64,000 nt of DNA from positions 1 through 64,000 of the forward strand of contig NZ_JAKVIL010000011.1 in assembly GCF_022601675.1 (NCBI RefSeq), read 5' to 3'. Positions 6,029-55,102 of this stretch are shown piece after piece. The stretch's first letter is position 1; every line of letters begins with the position of its first letter. The notes beneath the pieces are model-generated. The model was given only the letters and a program-made list of their open reading frames with translations. It did no database searches and was not told where the DNA came from. The translations under genes were made by a program, and so were the position numbers. The stretch is from Ancylobacter gelatini (lineage in GTDB: Bacteria; Pseudomonadota; Alphaproteobacteria; Rhizobiales; Xanthobacteraceae).

Positions 6029-6886
6029 TTACACGAAGTGATCAGCCCGCTGCGGAACCCCCGGCCCCGGCCGGGAGCGCGCGAGCGCATAGAGCGTCGC
6101 GAGCGTCGAGACATCGGCGATGCCGTCGATCTTGGCCCGGCGGAAATGGCGCTGGAAGGCGCGCACCACCGCTTCCGTGGTCTCGCAATAGCTGCCGGTG
6201 ACCGGCACGCCATAGCCGTAAAACGCCAGCATGGCCTGCAGCGCCTCGACCGGCTGGCCGTGCTCGCCGCGCATGAAGAAACGCCCGTCGTCGAGCGGCG
6301 CTTCGGGCACGAGATGGCCGACCCCGGCGCGGTGCAGCACCTCCCACGGGAATTTCTCGCCGGGATCGTCCTTGCGGGTCGGGGCGATGTCGGAATGGGC
6401 CAGCACGCGCTCGGGCGCGATGGCGAGCCGCGTCACGATATCCTTGGCGAGCGCGGTCACCGCCTCGATCTGGATCGCGGGGAAGGGGGGATAACCGTGG
6501 TCATGGCCGGGATTGGCGATCTCGATGCCGATCGAGCGTGAGTTGATATCGCTCGCGCCTTCCCAGGACGAGACGCCGGCATGCCAGGCACGGCGCGCTT
6601 CCGGGACCAGCTGGGCGATCTCGCCAGTCTCGAACACCACGTAATGCGCGGAGACGCCGCGCTCGGGCGTGCGCAGCCACTCCACCGCCTCGTCGGTGGA
6701 GGTCATGCCGGTATAGTGCAGCACCAGCATGTCGGCGACCGTGACGCCGATCCGCTCGCCGTGATTGGGCGAGGGCAGCACCCGCGCGGCGAGCGGGGAA
6801 TCCGGGGAAAACTGTGGCGCGGAGGTCTCCATCTCGACCGAGCTAGCGGGCATATGCGCCGCATTCAACCGATTCTTAAGGTTCAT
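6029..6886 (-). CDS. N-acetylmuramoyl-L-alanine amidase (Amidase_2 plus peptidoglycan-binding domain)
   Basis: A 285-residue protein with an N-terminal Amidase_2 (T7 lysozyme/AmpD/AmiD-like) zinc domain, about residues 35-185, and a C-terminal PG_binding_1 repeat, about 205-270. Likely zinc ligands are His in MLVLHYTG, His in LAHSDIAPTR and Asp in RKDDPGEKF. It cleaves the amide between MurNAc and L-Ala, probably in wall recycling or turnover. No clear signal peptide is visible, so location is uncertain (AmpD-like in the cytoplasm or exported). The start may be 6886 or the ATG at 6853; neither has a good ribosome-binding site. It diverges from the dcw cluster. Confidence 0.85.
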   Translation of the reverse strand: MNLKNRLNAAHMPASSVEMETSAPQFSPDSPLAARVLPSPNHGERIGVTVADMLVLHYTGMTSTDEAVEWLRTPERGVSAHYVVFETGEIAQLVPEARRAWHAGVSSWEGASDINSRSIGIEIANPGHDHGYPPFPAIQIEAVTALAKDIVTRLAIAPERVLAHSDIAPTRKDDPGEKFPWEVLHRAGVGHLVPEAPLDDGRFFMRGEHGQPVEALQAMLAFYGYGVPVTGSYCETTEAVVRAFQRHFRRAKIDGIADVSTLATLYALARSRPGPGVPQRADHFV

Positions 6887-6896
6887 GGAGCGTTAA
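6876..6896. promoter_or_regulatory. TTAA-N13-TTAA motif between amidase and rsmH
   Basis: Two TTAA tetramers stand 13 bases apart in otherwise GC-rich DNA, overlapping the 5' end of the divergent amidase frame. The same spacing recurs at 17472-17492 before ftsW. CtrA half-sites contain TTAA, but the usual spacing is 7. I list it as a candidate only. Confidence 0.25.
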
Positions 6897-7008
6897 TCAC
6901 GGTTCAGGGCCGGGAGCGGAATCAGTTGCGTCGCCGAAAGGCGTGCCTGCCGGCTTCCCGCCGGCCCTTCTGACGCATTTGAGCCCCCGTTCCGAGTAGC
7001 GTAATCCG

Positions 7009-8040
7009 TTGCACAGCGATCCCAGCCAGCAAGGTTTGTCCCCGGCGGCCGACGCCCGGCACCTGCCCGTCCTTTTGGCGGAGGTGGTGGCAAACCTCGC
7101 CCCGAAGGACGGCGGCGTCTATGTCGACGGCACGTTCGGTGCCGGCGGCTACGCGCGTGCCATCCTGAACGCGGCGAACTGCCGGGTGATCGCCATCGAC
7201 CGCGACCCGAGCGCGGTGGCGGGCGGGGCCGATCTGGTGCGCGCCTTTCCCGGGCGGCTCGCCATCGCGCAGGACCGCTTCGGCAACCTCGCCGAGGTCG
7301 CGGGCATGCTGGATGCGCCGCAGGTCGACGGCGTGGTGCTGGATATCGGCGTGTCCTCCATGCAGATCGACGAGGGCGAGCGCGGCTTCTCTTTCCGCCG
7401 CGACGGGCCGCTCGACATGCGCATGTCCAGCGAGGGCATCTCTGCCGCCGACATGGTGAACAGGCTCTCCGAGACCGAGCTTGCCAATCTGCTTTACCGC
7501 TTCGGCGAGGAGCGGCGCTCGCGCGGGGTGGCGAAGGCGATCGTCGAGGCACGGGGCGAGGCGCCGATCGAACGCACGCTGCAGCTCGCGGACATCATCG
7601 CCAAGGTGGTCTGGGCCAAGCCCCACGAGCCGCACCCGGCGACGCGCAGCTTTCAGGCGCTGCGCATCGCGGTGAACGACGAACTGGGCGAACTCGCCCG
7701 TGCGCTGGCGGCGGCCGAGCGCATTCTCAAGCCCGGCGGGCGGCTGGTGGTGGTCACCTTCCATTCGCTGGAAGACCGCATCGTGAAGAACTTCCTCGCC
7801 AACCGTGCCAAGGCGGCCTCCGGCTCGCGGCACCTGCCGGCGGCGCAAGGCGCGGCGCCGAGTTTCCGCCTCGTCGCGCGCGGCGCGGTCGAGGCCGGGG
7901 ACGCCGAGCTTGCCGCCAACCCTCGCGCCCGCTCGGCCAAGCTGCGCGCGGCCGAGCGCACCGACGCTCCCGCCCATGGCGGCGGCGACCTCTCGTCGTT
8001 GCTGCCCCCGCTTCCCGCCTTCGACACCCGTCGCCGCTGA
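7009..8040 (+). CDS. rsmH: 16S rRNA (cytosine(1402)-N(4))-methyltransferase RsmH
   Basis: A 343-residue S-adenosylmethionine methyltransferase that N4-methylates C1402 in the decoding centre of 16S rRNA. Visible motifs are [10 protein letters not shown] near residue 18, the SAM loop [10 protein letters not shown] (about 39-48), [10 protein letters not shown] and the C-terminal [11 protein letters not shown]. The start is a TTG at 7009: an in-frame TAG lies at 6997-6999 and no ATG precedes the conserved HLPVLL. It opens the dcw cluster; mraZ, which usually precedes it, is absent, and the 122 bases upstream hold only the promoter region shared with the divergent amidase. ftsL follows after 11 bases. 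Confidence 0.95.
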
Positions 8041-8051
8041 GGTCCGAAGAC

Positions 8052-8633
8052 ATGTTCCGCATCCTCAACTTCGTTTCGGTGATCGCGCTGCTTGCGGCGG
8101 CGGGGGCGGTCTATCACGTCAAATATTCCGCGGCCTTCGAGGCACAGAAGATCGCTGCGCTGCGCGGGGAGATCCGCTATGAGCGCGACCGCATCGCCAC
8201 GCTGAACGCGGAATGGGCGCGCCGCACCGCGCCGGACCGGGTGCAGGCGCTCGCCGAGCATCATCTGGAGATGCAACCGCTGGACATCACCCGCATGGAC
8301 AAGCTCGCCAGCCTGCCGGCCAAGCCCGAGCAGAACGGCGATGCGCTCGGCGGCATGATCGAGGCGCTGGTCGACGGCCCGTCCGGCGGCATCAACTCCA
8401 TCCTCGGCGGCACCGGGAAGGAAGCCGAGAAGCCCCGCCCGGCGGCCCTCCGTCCGGCGCCCCGTCCGGCGGTGTCCTCCGGGCAGCCGCTGCCGCTCTC
8501 GGCGATGCCGGCGGCGGGGGTGATGGCGCCGCAGCGCCCTGTCTTCAACGCGGGACCGCAGGGCGCCATCGGCGCTCCGCTCAATCCCGCCGCGTCCCGC
8601 CCGCTGCTGCCCCCGGCAGCGGTCGGTCAATAG
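8052..8633 (+). CDS. ftsL: FtsL-like divisome protein with long Pro/Ala-rich C-terminal tail
   Basis: A 193-residue bitopic membrane protein between rsmH and ftsI, the fixed place of ftsL. A short cytoplasmic N-terminus is followed by a transmembrane helix (about residues 5-25) and a periplasmic coiled-coil-forming stretch (about 30-75, heptad-like with Glu/Arg). FtsL pairs with the FtsB homologue and FtsQ to activate FtsWI. FtsL proteins are usually about 100-130 residues; here residues about 105-193 add a Pro/Ala/Gly-rich, probably disordered periplasmic extension. Assignment rests on position and topology, because FtsL sequence is poorly conserved. Confidence 0.8.
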   Translation: MFRILNFVSVIALLAAAGAVYHVKYSAAFEAQKIAALRGEIRYERDRIATLNAEWARRTAPDRVQALAEHHLEMQPLDITRMDKLASLPAKPEQNGDALGGMIEALVDGPSGGINSILGGTGKEAEKPRPAALRPAPRPAVSSGQPLPLSAMPAAGVMAPQRPVFNAGPQGAIGAPLNPAASRPLLPPAAVGQ

Positions 8634-14650: not shown

Positions 14651-16033
14651 ATGATCCCCGTCACCACCTTCAAGGACCGCCGCGTCGCCCTGTTCGGCCT
14701 CGGCGGCTCCGGGCTTGCCACCGCGCGCGCGCTCATTGCCGGCGGTGCCGACATCATCGCCTGGGATGACAATATCGAGGCGGTGGAGAAGGCCGACGAC
14801 GCCGACATCCCCACCGGCGACCTGCGCGCGCTGGAATGGGGCGCGGTGGACGCGCTGGTGCTGGCGCCCGGCGTGCCGCTGACCCATCCGATCCCGCACT
14901 GGAGCGTTCGGATGGCGCAAGCGGCCGGGGTGGAAGTCATTGGCGACATCGAACTGTTCTGCCGCGAGCGCCGGCTGGCGACGCGCCGGCCGCCCATGGC
15001 CGCGATCACCGGCACCAATGGCAAGTCGACCACGACCGCGCTGCTCGCGCATCTGATGAAGGTCGGCGGGCGCGATGCGCAGATCGGCGGCAATTTCGGG
15101 CCGGCCATTCTCGGACTGGAGCCGCCGAAGCAGGGGCGGGTCTATGTCATCGAATGCTCCTCCTACCAGATCGACCTCGCCCCGAGCCTCGATCCGTCGG
15201 TCGGCGTGCTGTTGAACCTGTCGCCGGATCATCTCGACCGCCATGGCGACATGGAGCACTACGCCGCCATCAAGGAGCGGCTGGTGGCGCAGGTGGAGGC
15301 CGGCGGCACGGCGGTGGTCGGGGTCGACGATCCCTGGTGCCGCGCCATCGCCGAGCGGCTGATCGCGGCGGGCGGCAATGTGGTGCGCGTCTCGGTGCGC
15401 GAGGCGCTCAATGACGGCATCTGGCTCGACGGCGAAACGCTGGTGCTCTGCGAGGAGGGCGAGCGCATCTATGAGCTTTCCCTTTCCGGCATCGGCTCGC
15501 TGCGCGGCGCGCATAATGCGCAGAACGCCGCCGCCGCCTTCGCCAGCGCCCGCGCGCTCGGCCTCGCGCCGGAGATCATCGCGGCCGGCATGCGCTCCTT
15601 CCCCGGCCTCGCCCATCGCATGGAGCAGGTGCGCACCCTCGGCAATGTGCTGTTCGTCAATGATTCCAAGGCCACCAATGCCGACGCCGCCGAGCGGGCG
15701 CTGACCAGCTTCGACGACATCTTCTGGATTGCCGGCGGCAAGCCCAAGGAGGGCGGCATCACGCCGCTCACCCCGTGGTTCGGGCGCATCCGCAAGGCCT
15801 ATCTGATCGGCGAGGCGGCGCCGGCGTTCGCTCAGACGCTGGGCGAGACCGTGCCGCATGAGATGTCCGGCACGCTGGCGGTGGCGGTGGCCTCCGCCGC
15901 CCGCGACGCGGCGGCTTCCGGGCTGGCGCATCCGGTGGTGCTGCTGTCGCCCGCCTGCGCCAGTTTCGACCAGTTCCGCAATTTCGAGGTGCGCGGCGAC
16001 GCCTTCCGCACGCTGGTCAACACATTGCGTTGA
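14651..16033 (+). CDS. murD: UDP-N-acetylmuramoyl-L-alanine--D-glutamate ligase
   Basis: A 460-residue cytoplasmic ligase that adds D-glutamate to UDP-MurNAc-L-Ala. It has an N-terminal Rossmann-like domain ([12 protein letters not shown]), P-loop [10 protein letters not shown] with Lys125, the [13 protein letters not shown] segment and the C-terminal [15 protein letters not shown] and [11 protein letters not shown] signatures, all standard for MurD. The next gene on the strand is not ftsW as usual but a PAS-GGDEF protein 87 bases on, with a GC-rich hairpin between. Confidence 0.96.
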
Positions 16034-16068
16034 AGGGGTATTCGCGCGATTGTTCTCAGTATCGCAGC

Positions 16069-16093
16069 GGGGCGGGCTGAGGGTGTCCCGCCC
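16069..16093 (+). terminator. GC-rich hairpin after murD (possible weak terminator)
   Basis: GGGCGGG (16070-16076) pairs with CCCGCCC (16087-16093) across a 10-base loop, 36 bases after the murD stop. No T tract follows, so read-through into the diguanylate cyclase and ftsW is expected. It may reduce or process the transcript. Confidence 0.35.
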
Positions 16094-16120
16094 TGATACA
16101 TGTCGAGACGGACTTTCGCG

Positions 16121-17425
16121 ATGCCTGACGCCATTCCCGGATGGTTCGACCATGTCCGCGCGCCGCTGGTCCTCGCTGCGGGCGACCTTGCCCTCGTCAC
16201 CGCGCTGAACGCCGAGGCCGCCCGCCTGATGGGCGCGGGGCCGACCATGCCGTGCGCGCTGGCGGAACTGATCGGGCCGGAGGCCGCGGCGGCGGTGGTC
16301 GCGATGGGCACCGCCGGGCCTGCCGCGCAATCCTCCCCGCCATCCCGCGTCCTGACCTGCCGTGTCGCCGGCCGGGACCGCACGCTCGACGTGGCGCTGT
16401 CGCGGCTGGAGGACGGGCGCTGCCTGCTGACGCTTCAGGACCGGATGGCCGAGCACGAGGCCGCCGACAAGCTCCTGGCGATCCAGGACGATATTCGCGA
16501 GATCATGGAATCGATGCCGGTCGGGGTCGAGATCTACGACCGCGACGACACGTGCCTGTTCATGAATCACTATGGCGCCGCGCTGCTGGGCTATGGGGTC
16601 GACGACGTGTTCGAGCTCGATGACTGGTGGCGCCTCGCCTATCCCGATCCCGCCTATCGGAAGATGGCCATCGACGGCTGGGCGCAGGGCGTGCGCCAGG
16701 CGCGGGAGGAAAAGAACTACATCCAGATGTCGGAATGGATCGTGACCGCGAAGGACGGGTCGCAGCGGCTGATCCACTTCCGGCTGCGGGCGCTGATGGA
16801 CAATACCGTGCTGGTGTACTGGGACGTGTCCGACCATGGCCGGCTCGTCAACCAACTCCGGCATCTGGCCGATACCGACGAACTGACCGGCGCCAGCAAC
16901 CGCCGGCGCTTCCTCGCGGAAGGCGAGGCGGCGCTGGCCTCGGCGCGGCGGTCGGGGACGCCGACCGCGGTGCTGATGGTCGACATCGATTATTTCAAGC
17001 GGGTGAACGACCGGTTCGGCCACGCCGCCGGCGACCTGGTGCTGCGCGGCTTCGTGGAGAAATGCCGCCGGGCGCTGCGCGAGCAGGATCTGCTGGCCCG
17101 GCTCGGCGGCGAGGAGTTCGTGGCGCTGCTGCCGGGCACCGGCGAGGCGGAGGCGCACAAGGTCGCCGAGACGCTGCGCAATTTCATCGCCGCCGCCCCG
17201 ATGATGATCGAGGGCATGCCGATCCCGATCACCGTCAGCATCGGCGTGTCGGTGATCGATCCGAACCAGGCCGAGACCGCCGCGACGGAAACCGATGCCG
17301 ACATATTGTCCGGCCTGATGCGCCGGGCCGACCTCGCGCTCTACGCCGCCAAGGATGGCGGGCGAAACCGCGTGGTGCGTGACGGGGCCAATATTCCGCT
17401 GGTGCCGGCGATGTCCGCCAAATGA
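16121..17425 (+). CDS. PAS-GGDEF diguanylate cyclase inserted in the dcw cluster
   Basis: A 434-residue predicted diguanylate cyclase (two GTP to cyclic di-GMP). After an unassigned N-terminal region (1-115), a PAS-like domain with PAC tail covers about 120-235 and a full GGDEF domain about 255-425. The active site reads GGEEF (329-333) and a canonical inhibitory I-site RxxD (R320-D323) lies five residues before it, so the enzyme should be active and product-inhibited. DTDELTGASNRRRF and DIDYFKRVNDRFGHAAGD are intact. No transmembrane segment is seen, so it is cytoplasmic. ATG 16121 has a GAGACGG nine bases upstream; an ATG at 16100 is the alternative. Same strand and codon bias as its neighbours, which argues against a very recent arrival. 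Confidence 0.9.
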   Translation: MPDAIPGWFDHVRAPLVLAAGDLALVTALNAEAARLMGAGPTMPCALAELIGPEAAAAVVAMGTAGPAAQSSPPSRVLTCRVAGRDRTLDVALSRLEDGRCLLTLQDRMAEHEAADKLLAIQDDIREIMESMPVGVEIYDRDDTCLFMNHYGAALLGYGVDDVFELDDWWRLAYPDPAYRKMAIDGWAQGVRQAREEKNYIQMSEWIVTAKDGSQRLIHFRLRALMDNTVLVYWDVSDHGRLVNQLRHLADTDELTGASNRRRFLAEGEAALASARRSGTPTAVLMVDIDYFKRVNDRFGHAAGDLVLRGFVEKCRRALREQDLLARLGGEEFVALLPGTGEAEAHKVAETLRNFIAAAPMMIEGMPIPITVSIGVSVIDPNQAETAATETDADILSGLMRRADLALYAAKDGGRNRVVRDGANIPLVPAMSAK

Positions 17426-17471
17426 AGACGGCGCGATCGGCGTACCGGACATGCGCCGATGGCGCTCGCCA

Positions 17472-17494
17472 TTAAGCCGGCGTCAACCTTAACC
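17472..17494 (+). promoter_or_regulatory. TTAA pair with TTAACC half-site upstream of ftsW
   Basis: TTAA at 17472-17475 and TTAACC at 17489-17494 lie 45-65 bases before the ftsW ATG in a GC-rich setting. TTAACC resembles a CtrA half-site, but the 13-base spacing differs from the canonical 7. It may mark a cell-cycle promoter for ftsW. Candidate only. Confidence 0.3.
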
Positions 17495-17538
17495 GTTCGA
17501 TAGTCGCGCCAGACGTATTTCTTGAGCGAGTGGCGTAG

Positions 17539-18708
17539 ATGATTTCACGTGCCGAGAGGACCGTGGTCGGCGAATGGTGGTGGACCATCGACCGCCTGCT
17601 GCTGGGGGCGCTCGCTGCGCTGATGATCATCGGCATCGTGCTGGCGCTGGCCGCCAGCCCGCCGGTGGCCTCGCGTCTCGGCATCGCCGACCCGTTCCAC
17701 TTCGTGAACCGGCAGGTGATGTTCCTGGTCCCGGCGATCATCGTGCTGATCGCGACCTCGCTGCTCTCCCCGCGCAATATCCGGCGCCTCGCTTTGGTGC
17801 TGTTCATCCTGTTCCTGGGGCTGGTCTGGGCGACGCTGTTCGTCGGCCCGGAGGTCAAGGGCGCGCGGCGCTGGCTGAACATCGCCTCGATCACGCTCCA
17901 GCCCTCCGAATTCCTGAAGCCGAGCTTCGTGATCATCGCGGCGTGGCTGTTCTCCGAAAGCGTGCGCCGGCCGGAAATGCCGGGCCAGTGGCTGGCCATC
18001 GGCCTGCTCGGCGCGGTGGTGACGCCCCTGGTGATGCAGCCGGATTTCGGCCAGACCATGCTGGTCTCGCTGGTGTGGGGCAGCCTGTTCTTCCTTGCCG
18101 GGCTGCGGCTGATCTGGGTGGTCGGGCTGGGCGGCGTCGGCGCGGTCGGCCTGTTCATCGCCTATACGATGGTGCCCCACGTCACCAAGCGCATCGACCG
18201 CTTCCTCGATCCCGAATCCGGCGATACCTACCAGATCGACCTGGCCATCGATTCCTTCCTCAATGGCGGCTGGCTGGGTCAGGGGCCGGGCGAGGGCACC
18301 TACAAGAAGGTGCTGCCGGACGGGCACACCGACTTCATCTTCGCCGTGGCCGGCGAGGAATTCGGCGCCGTGCTGTGCCTGATGATCGCCGGCCTGTTCG
18401 CCTTCATCGTGCTGCGCGCGCTGTCGCGGGCGATGAGCGACGAGGACCCGTTCGTGCGCTTCGCGGTGGCGGGGCTCGCCATACTGTTCGGGCTCCAGTC
18501 TTGCATCAACATGATGGTCAACCTGCATCTCATGCCGGCCAAGGGCATGACGCTGCCCTTCGTTTCCTATGGCGGCTCCTCTTTGCTGTCGCTGGCCTAT
18601 GGCATGGGCATGCTGCTCGCCCTGACACGGCGGCGCCCGCGCACCGCCACGCTGGCGGAACTGGAGCGGCTGGGCACGCGGCTCGGCGCGCGCCCGCAGG
18701 CCGCCTGA
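17539..18708 (+). CDS. ftsW: Septal peptidoglycan glycosyltransferase FtsW
   Basis: A 389-residue SEDS-family membrane protein with about ten transmembrane helices. It polymerises lipid II at the septum together with FtsI. SEDS hallmarks are seen: KGARRWLNI in the first third, the PDFGQTM loop, the periplasmic DGHTDFIFAVAGEEFG motif and PFVSYGGSS near the C-terminus. The 113-base gap before it, after the diguanylate cyclase, contains TTAACC and might carry its own promoter. murG follows 10 bases after the stop. Confidence 0.96.
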   Translation: MISRAERTVVGEWWWTIDRLLLGALAALMIIGIVLALAASPPVASRLGIADPFHFVNRQVMFLVPAIIVLIATSLLSPRNIRRLALVLFILFLGLVWATLFVGPEVKGARRWLNIASITLQPSEFLKPSFVIIAAWLFSESVRRPEMPGQWLAIGLLGAVVTPLVMQPDFGQTMLVSLVWGSLFFLAGLRLIWVVGLGGVGAVGLFIAYTMVPHVTKRIDRFLDPESGDTYQIDLAIDSFLNGGWLGQGPGEGTYKKVLPDGHTDFIFAVAGEEFGAVLCLMIAGLFAFIVLRALSRAMSDEDPFVRFAVAGLAILFGLQSCINMMVNLHLMPAKGMTLPFVSYGGSSLLSLAYGMGMLLALTRRRPRTATLAELERLGTRLGARPQAA

Positions 18709-52454: not shown

Positions 52455-52773
52455 TGCCGGGTCCTTCCCCCAAAAAGAAGGCGCGGATTATAGGAATCGC
52501 GAAGGTGGCGGCAAGCGCTGTTCTCACATCCGCGTCATCCCGTCCGCAAACGGCTGTCCCCGCTCATGCTTAACACCGCCTTTACCACCTTTTGCGACAG
52601 TGCATTTGCTTCTCCGTTCGGCTTCTCCGGCCTTGTTTCATCGGCGCCATCGCGGCCGGATATGGGACCTTTGCCGGTTTCGTGAGTTGAACCGGAGAGA
52701 GCGAACCGAGACAAAGAGGCTGCGTACCAGCCTCATGCGTTTTCAGATAGTGTGGCGGGGAACGGAGACAGCA
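52455..52773. other. Divergent intergenic region purE/L,D-transpeptidase (319 bases)
   Basis: No gene is supported. It holds a CtrA-like TTAA-N7-TTTA (52570-52584), a direct repeat GCTTCTCCG (near 52608 and 52620), and a 7-bp hairpin GAGGCTG/CAGCCTC (52716-52734) shortly before the transpeptidase start. Promoters for both flanking genes should lie here. Confidence 0.6.
52570..52584 (+). promoter_or_regulatory. CtrA-like box upstream of the L,D-transpeptidase gene
   Basis: TTAA (52570-52573), seven bases, TTTA (52581-52584): seven of eight core positions of TTAA-N7-TTAA. It lies 190 bases before the transpeptidase ATG and 116 bases before purE. Two further variants lie near other wall genes in the window. 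Binding is inference. Confidence 0.4.
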
Positions 52774-54816: not shown

Positions 54817-55102
54817 CGCCCATCTCCACCTGTCACACCCTCGTCATTGGCTGATTTGTGTTTCATCAAAGACACGATCAACCAAAAAACTGACGATGAA
54901 TGGTGCTGTTGTAGCGAATTTGATTGGGCGGCACGGTTTCGCCACAGTCACTTTCTAGCCAGAGTGCCAATAAAGGCGTGGGGGTTGGGTCGTAACGGCC
55001 TTTTAACCAAACCCGATAAGACTGTGTTGACCATGTGTGTCGCGGCTTCCGGCTGCGGCGCTTCAAGGAAACGTTCGTTTTCGGGTTTGGAAGTCCGTGC
55101 GC
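54817..55102 (+). promoter_or_regulatory. A/T-rich leader of the DUF882 endopeptidase gene
   Basis: This 286-base gap is clearly more A/T-rich than its surroundings from about 54835 to 55035. It contains the CtrA-like box at 54992-55006 inside a dyad: GGGTTGGGT (54982-54990) faces ACCAAACCC (55006-55014) with one mismatch. I see no convincing small gene in it. Confidence 0.5.
54992..55006 (+). promoter_or_regulatory. CtrA-like box upstream of the DUF882 endopeptidase gene
   Basis: GTAA (54992-54995), seven bases, TTAA followed by CC (55003-55008): seven of eight core positions of TTAA-N7-TTAA, about 100 bases before the start codon, within an imperfect stem-loop. Confidence 0.45.

Follow-up and report, generated by a model that had tools for sequence, protein, structure and literature searches.

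Published work bearing on the locus described here concerns cyclic di-GMP (c-di-GMP) and division or the control of division genes. The E. coli cyclase YfiN reaches the division site and stalls division (PMC4992967), and c-di-GMP switches the Caulobacter protein CckA to a phosphatase (PMC4853435). The CtrA motif, TTAA-N7-TTAA(C), is described in Agrobacterium (PMC11527210) and in Hyphomonas (PMC7200025), in neither case with mention of ftsW; the latter is a CtrA study whose main text does not name that gene. In Rhodobacter sphaeroides, ftsW is among seven promoters named within the dcw cluster, and a ChIP signal for CenR lies before ftsW without a CenR motif (PMC9275681). Within the literature searched, which was open-licence PMC text only, we found neither a cyclase gene inside a dcw cluster nor a report of CtrA at ftsW.

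The stretch analysed here, called the window, consists of 64,000 nucleotides of Ancylobacter gelatini (contig NZ_JAKVIL010000011.1, positions 1 to 64,000). It contains a gene for a diguanylate cyclase (DGC) between murD and ftsW. The gene, its motifs, its position, its patchy presence among relatives, the single clade formed by its copies, and a conserved box ahead of ftsW are all read directly from the DNA. We consider it probable that the gene is an old, dispensable, sensory passenger at an insertion-tolerant murD-ftsW boundary of the Ancylobacter dcw cluster. The arrangement is real and is repeated in one genus, and the cyclase itself is ordinary on present evidence.

The cyclase gene and its dcw neighbours

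The features used below are as follows.

14651-16033, forward strand: murD (TIGR01087, 355.6 bits; cut-off 211.95)
16034-16120, forward strand: murD-DGC gap of 87 nt, with neither a sigma-70-like promoter nor a terminator detected (z -1.0 for the fold of 16031-16130)
16121-17425, forward strand: PAS-GGDEF diguanylate cyclase gene, an open reading frame of 434 aa with Pfam GGDEF and PAS_8 matches
16493-16684, forward strand: PAS domain, residues 125-188 (Pfam PAS_8, 32.9 bits; cut-off 21.8)
16868-17371, forward strand: GGDEF domain, residues 250-417 (Pfam PF00990, 137.2 bits; cut-off 23.8)
17078-17089, forward strand: RxxD inhibitory site (I-site), R320-D323, placed by alignment and present in three of the five copies at the locus
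17105-17119, forward strand: GGEEF active-site motif, residues 329-333, placed by alignment and present in all five copies at the locus
17472-17494, forward strand: CtrA-like box TTAAGCCGGCGTCAACCTTAACC ahead of ftsW, of the form TTAA-N7-TCAA, found in 30 of 30 genus genomes
17539-18708, forward strand: ftsW (TIGR02614, 341.8 bits; cut-off 337.5)

A preliminary description of this DNA had placed an intact cyclase between murD and ftsW, on the same strand, in an otherwise ordinary dcw cluster. That placement stands, with the murD stop at 16033 and the ftsW start at 17539. The neighbours of the DGC from ftsI to murB are identified by family models, and rsmH, ddl, ftsQ, ftsA, and ftsZ are confirmed in the window by Pfam; the open reading frame at the place of ftsL (8052-8630) has no Pfam match at 1e-5. 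In many dcw clusters, mraZ precedes rsmH. Among the 30 genus genomes examined, a MraZ match is absent from that of the window and from five others, and in the window a peptidoglycan amidase gene lies on the opposite strand directly before rsmH (region 6886-7009).

The open reading frame, Pfam, and the alignment also bear out the coordinates and residue numbering first given for the gene: the alignment places G329, G330, E331, E332, and F333 of the active-site motif as well as R320 and D323 of the I-site. An in-frame ATG is also present at 16100; the start at 16121 agrees with the starts chosen for four other species. Codon use is like that of the neighbours, as had been claimed, with a GC3 of 0.894 for the DGC and 0.889-0.923 for the eight neighbours measured. 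Residues D288, N296, D305, K411, and R415, which we take to be the invariant residues neighbouring the GG(D/E)EF active site, are invariant across 20 aligned rows (20 of 32 relatives). The RxxD motif is present in the copies of genomes G000, G007, and G018 and absent from those of G012 and G043; feedback inhibition through RxxD is therefore not a constant trait. The window's own genome has 28 matches to the DGC (E up to 0.001), and the DGC is thus one among many GGDEF proteins there.

Residues 1-126 of the window DGC give no PAS match, and one weak, unrelated match falls below its cut-off. A paralogue, on the other hand, matches PAS_4 at residues 6-99, and residues 1-110 of the DGC are for that reason probably a second, N-terminal PAS domain. 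By eye, the protein reads as soluble. From its domains and motifs, it would be expected to make c-di-GMP, with the PAS domain presumably sensing a cytoplasmic signal.

The murD-ftsW interval in Ancylobacter and beyond

The interval between murD and ftsW was read in all 30 genomes of the genus sample. Seventeen have a bare junction of 71-115 bp. The DGC is present in five, standing alone in three (G000, G012, and G043) and followed by a permease gene in two (G007 and G018). Six others have the permease alone, for a permease total of eight of 30. The last two genomes have intervals of 1014 bp, with one open reading frame that is DUF4272-like by eye (G023), and 333 bp (G021). The permease scores 368 bits against an ethanolamine permease model, just below the cut-off of 381.75; by eye, its gene (e.g., L095:4245-5759) seems to have promoter-like sequence of its own upstream.

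Matches to the window DGC (E up to 0.001) serve as a proxy for GGDEF genes. There are 14-28 of them in 19 of the 25 genus genomes counted, and two or three in each of the other six (G002, G009, G013, G016, G020, and G024), all of which fall in one clade of eight. A near loss of the c-di-GMP network in these six is likely, judging by this proxy.

To look beyond the genus, 80 named ftsW loci were divided into 19 treated as genus, whose FtsW is 84-92% identical to that of the window and most of which carry the name Ancylobacter, a few having other names, and 61 treated as non-genus; past the 19 genus records, FtsW identity falls to 73% or less. No GGDEF match (E 1e-10) is present in the stretches around ftsW at any of the 61 loci of other Hyphomicrobiales. 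In 52 of these, murD is seen upstream of ftsW, and the gap is 400 bp or more in 11 of the 52. Nine have no murD in view; eight of them span 2.6-6 kb upstream, and in the ninth the contig starts at ftsW. Some of the non-genus intervals carry unrelated genes, which by eye are GDSL-like or serine-hydrolase-like. At four loci (L097, L098, L100, and L104, from Hyphomicrobiales/Rhizobiales MAGs, Aquabacter, and Xanthobacter), murD is not seen near ftsW, and a reverse-strand gene that looks like an ATP-dependent helicase precedes the ftsW box.

The preliminary description had proposed that presence in a single strain would count against its reading and had asked whether the gene is fixed at this place. 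Neither outcome is found: five of 30 genus genomes have the gene, with copies that form one clade, and it is not fixed, since the other 25 do without it and none of the 61 non-genus loci shows a GGDEF match.

The box ahead of ftsW and transcription of the insert

The box at 17472-17494 is the only exact match to its 23-base pattern in the genome, and one further place matches at two mismatches. In the 30 genus genomes, TTAA-N7-TCAA starts 61-109 bp before ftsW. Relative to TTAA-N7-TTAA, exactly one mismatch is present in each of the 30 boxes and none is perfect; in most of these genomes, the form is CATTAAG-N5-GTCAACCTTAACC-N3-CGATA or near it. Within the window, six sites match TTAA-N7-TTAA with one mismatch each (165-179, 6865-6879, 6882-6896, 17472-17486, 52570-52584, and 54992-55006), where 0.35 are expected and none of 100 shuffles reaches six. 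We also compared the box with the CenR motif (TGA-N8-TGA), but it fits TTAA-N7-TTAA better, and a CenR identity was set aside.

Outside the genus, TTAA-N7-TTAA occurs with at most one mismatch in the 130 bp before ftsW at 20 of 60 loci, whereas random windows drawn from these loci predict 0.3, kinship being ignored; the 60 are the 61 non-genus loci minus the one whose contig starts at ftsW. Some of these 20 differ in the form or position of the box, and the other 40 are without it at one mismatch, so it is not general in the order. The box is present at 14 of the 19 non-genus loci with a long or missing murD-ftsW interval versus 6 of the other 41 (Fisher p 1.3e-5, kinship again ignored). We infer that the box is part of a promoter belonging to ftsW itself.

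Every insert in the genus falls between murD and this box, and in G012 the stop codon of the DGC overlaps it. In the window, the box lies downstream of the DGC stop (17425), and thus the DGC is not in or behind the presumed ftsW promoter. It had been suggested that the cyclase gene shares the transcript or the promoter region of ftsW. A shared promoter is unlikely, because a CtrA-like box of its own accompanies ftsW in all 30 genomes and, wherever there is an insert, follows it on the way to ftsW.

On the murD side, the gap to the DGC is 42-88 nt across the five genomes that have the gene. A search of 15900-17700, based on the sigma-70 consensus for promoters, gave neither a promoter nor a terminator; this absence says little, because shuffles expect only 0.2 and 0.6. 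Folds in this region are not clearly stronger than those of shuffles (z -1.0 and -1.3). Read-through from murD into the DGC is plausible, and such transcription could run on into ftsW. The short gap may also leave room for co-regulation with the wall genes.

These observations are consistent with the idea that a soluble sensory DGC (PAS, probably PAS-PAS, then GGDEF) has long resided at a boundary between two transcription units. One unit would comprise murein-precursor genes ending with murD; the other would be led by ftsW and carry its own CtrA-like box. Genes inserted on the murD side of that box would leave control of ftsW intact, and they could therefore enter, stay, or be lost at the boundary. 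Transcription of the DGC would continue from murD by read-through or begin at the gene's own promoter. Its PAS-controlled c-di-GMP synthesis would most likely feed the general pool, and the DGC would then not be a dedicated septal regulator.

A different reading, and the one that the preliminary description had in mind, couples the gene to division: expression of the DGC would go along with that of wall and division genes, raising c-di-GMP while the septum is built. Its position in all five copies, on the same strand and directly behind murD at a distance of 42-88 nt, is in keeping with such coupling, as are the retention of GGEEF in all five and the E. coli precedent of YfiN. However, the DGC is missing from the interval in 25 of 30 genus genomes, ftsW has its own box, the permease occupies the same slot in eight genomes, and the I-site is lost in two of the five copies. 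Furthermore, the protein is not YfiN/DgcN, scoring 119.3 bits against NF007423, where the cut-off is 325. We regard coupling as unlikely; in the present data, nothing other than adjacency ties the DGC to septal synthesis. If its activity nevertheless turned out to follow the timing of division, the DGC would provide a naturally occurring link between c-di-GMP and wall synthesis.

A more elaborate, genus-specific scheme can be drawn by analogy with Caulobacter. DGC made by read-through would raise c-di-GMP, turn CckA toward its phosphatase activity, leave CtrA less active, and so change the output of the ftsW promoter. If true, precursor supply and expression of the septal synthase would be tied through c-di-GMP. 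We think this feedback very improbable.

Descent, selection, and relation to known systems

Relatives of the DGC were collected at two levels, with the best four candidates per genome scored in each. Of 391 family genomes, 24 have a match at E up to 1e-50, and 14 of the 24 belong to the genus; the order search (397 genomes) gave 13 at E up to 1e-60, one of which is the window's own. Twelve family places outside the genus were found and 11 were included, G092:C392 being left out. A tree of 32 sequences combined the five locus copies with 27 others from the genus and family, and the locus copies form one clade in it with support of 100/98. They still do so when the 12 order-level relatives are added, for a total of 44, in a quick tree (SH-aLRT 97). 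The stretches around the 27 relatives from other places show no match to murD or ftsW, and eight dcw genes were sought around the 12 order-level relatives without a match. G634, the best-scoring match from outside the genus, has 44% identity, and all eight dcw genes are absent from the 5 kb or so around it.

A species tree of the 30 genomes was built from murD, ftsW, and rpoB, with G007 and G021 placed by murD and ftsW alone and the root set by us on G021 plus G023. In G007, ftsW (L062) is split into two reading frames near residue 335, a break that is likely an assembly error. The bearers of the DGC are scattered on this tree: G018 branches early and G000 next, followed by G012 with G043, and G007. 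By parsimony, the DGC requires at least four changes and the permease at least six. Between DGC copies, dS rises and falls with the murD value (r 0.95 over ten non-independent pairs), with a ratio of 1.06-1.48 that is never under 1, the dS values being NG86 estimates that are partly saturated. Because the ratio never falls under 1, recent transfer is not indicated. AU tests, however, reject the species-tree branching order for the five copies (p 0.015 and 0.014), and strict descent with loss is therefore not clean.

These results bear on how the gene came to have its present distribution. Several separate insertions, or transfers borne by recombination, into a permissive slot would be compatible with a passenger, and would account for the four parsimony changes, the AU rejections, and the presence of the permease without the DGC in G010, the sister of G007. 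Such a history is harder to reconcile with the single clade of the five copies, set apart from all relatives used, with a DGC dS never below that of murD, and with the murD-DGC-permease-ftsW order common to the distant genomes G007 and G018, which suggests an ancestral arrangement. We hold repeated entry to be possible but doubtful, and lean toward old residence with many losses.

Selection was gauged from the same ten pairs. The dN/dS of the DGC is 0.27-0.73, whereas that of murD is 0.14-0.33; it is above the murD value in all ten pairs, above the ftsW value in all ten, and under 1 in all ten. The excess over both neighbours, along with the 25 genus genomes that have no DGC at this place, would suit a decaying or inactive gene. 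However, all five reading frames are intact at 422-443 aa, the GGEEF motif and the other invariant GGDEF residues are retained, and no pair reaches a dN/dS of 1. Decay is thus scarcely credible, and the DGC appears instead to be kept under relaxed selection. A plain passenger, on the other hand, would not need to retain GGEEF in all five copies over deep branches, in a constant slot.

The old-passenger reading suggests that, although dcw is often regarded as a rigid cluster, insertions are tolerated at its murD-ftsW joint, beyond the promoter-like box that goes with ftsW. If so, adjacency within dcw is a weak guide to function.

Among known systems, the general family of PAS-GGDEF cyclases is the closest, sharing the domain order, GGEEF, and RxxD, and the window DGC is unusual in this company only in its place among dcw genes. 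PleD and WspR, whose structures are solved, are related in sequence to its GGDEF part. PleD, the cell-cycle cyclase of Caulobacter, gives the best NCBIfam score by bits (147.5), confined to the GGDEF part at residues 245-420; the DGC lies below the NF007135 cut-off of 474, and a receiver domain is absent from its Pfam matches. YfiN has the GGDEF domain in common and, as a septal protein, provides a link between a cyclase and division. It is a membrane protein, whereas the DGC reads as soluble, and the DGC falls short of the NF007423 equivalog model. The dcw cluster of Rhodobacter sphaeroides, with its internal ftsW promoter, is comparable to the presumed arrangement in Ancylobacter, where inserted genes are found at this boundary as well.
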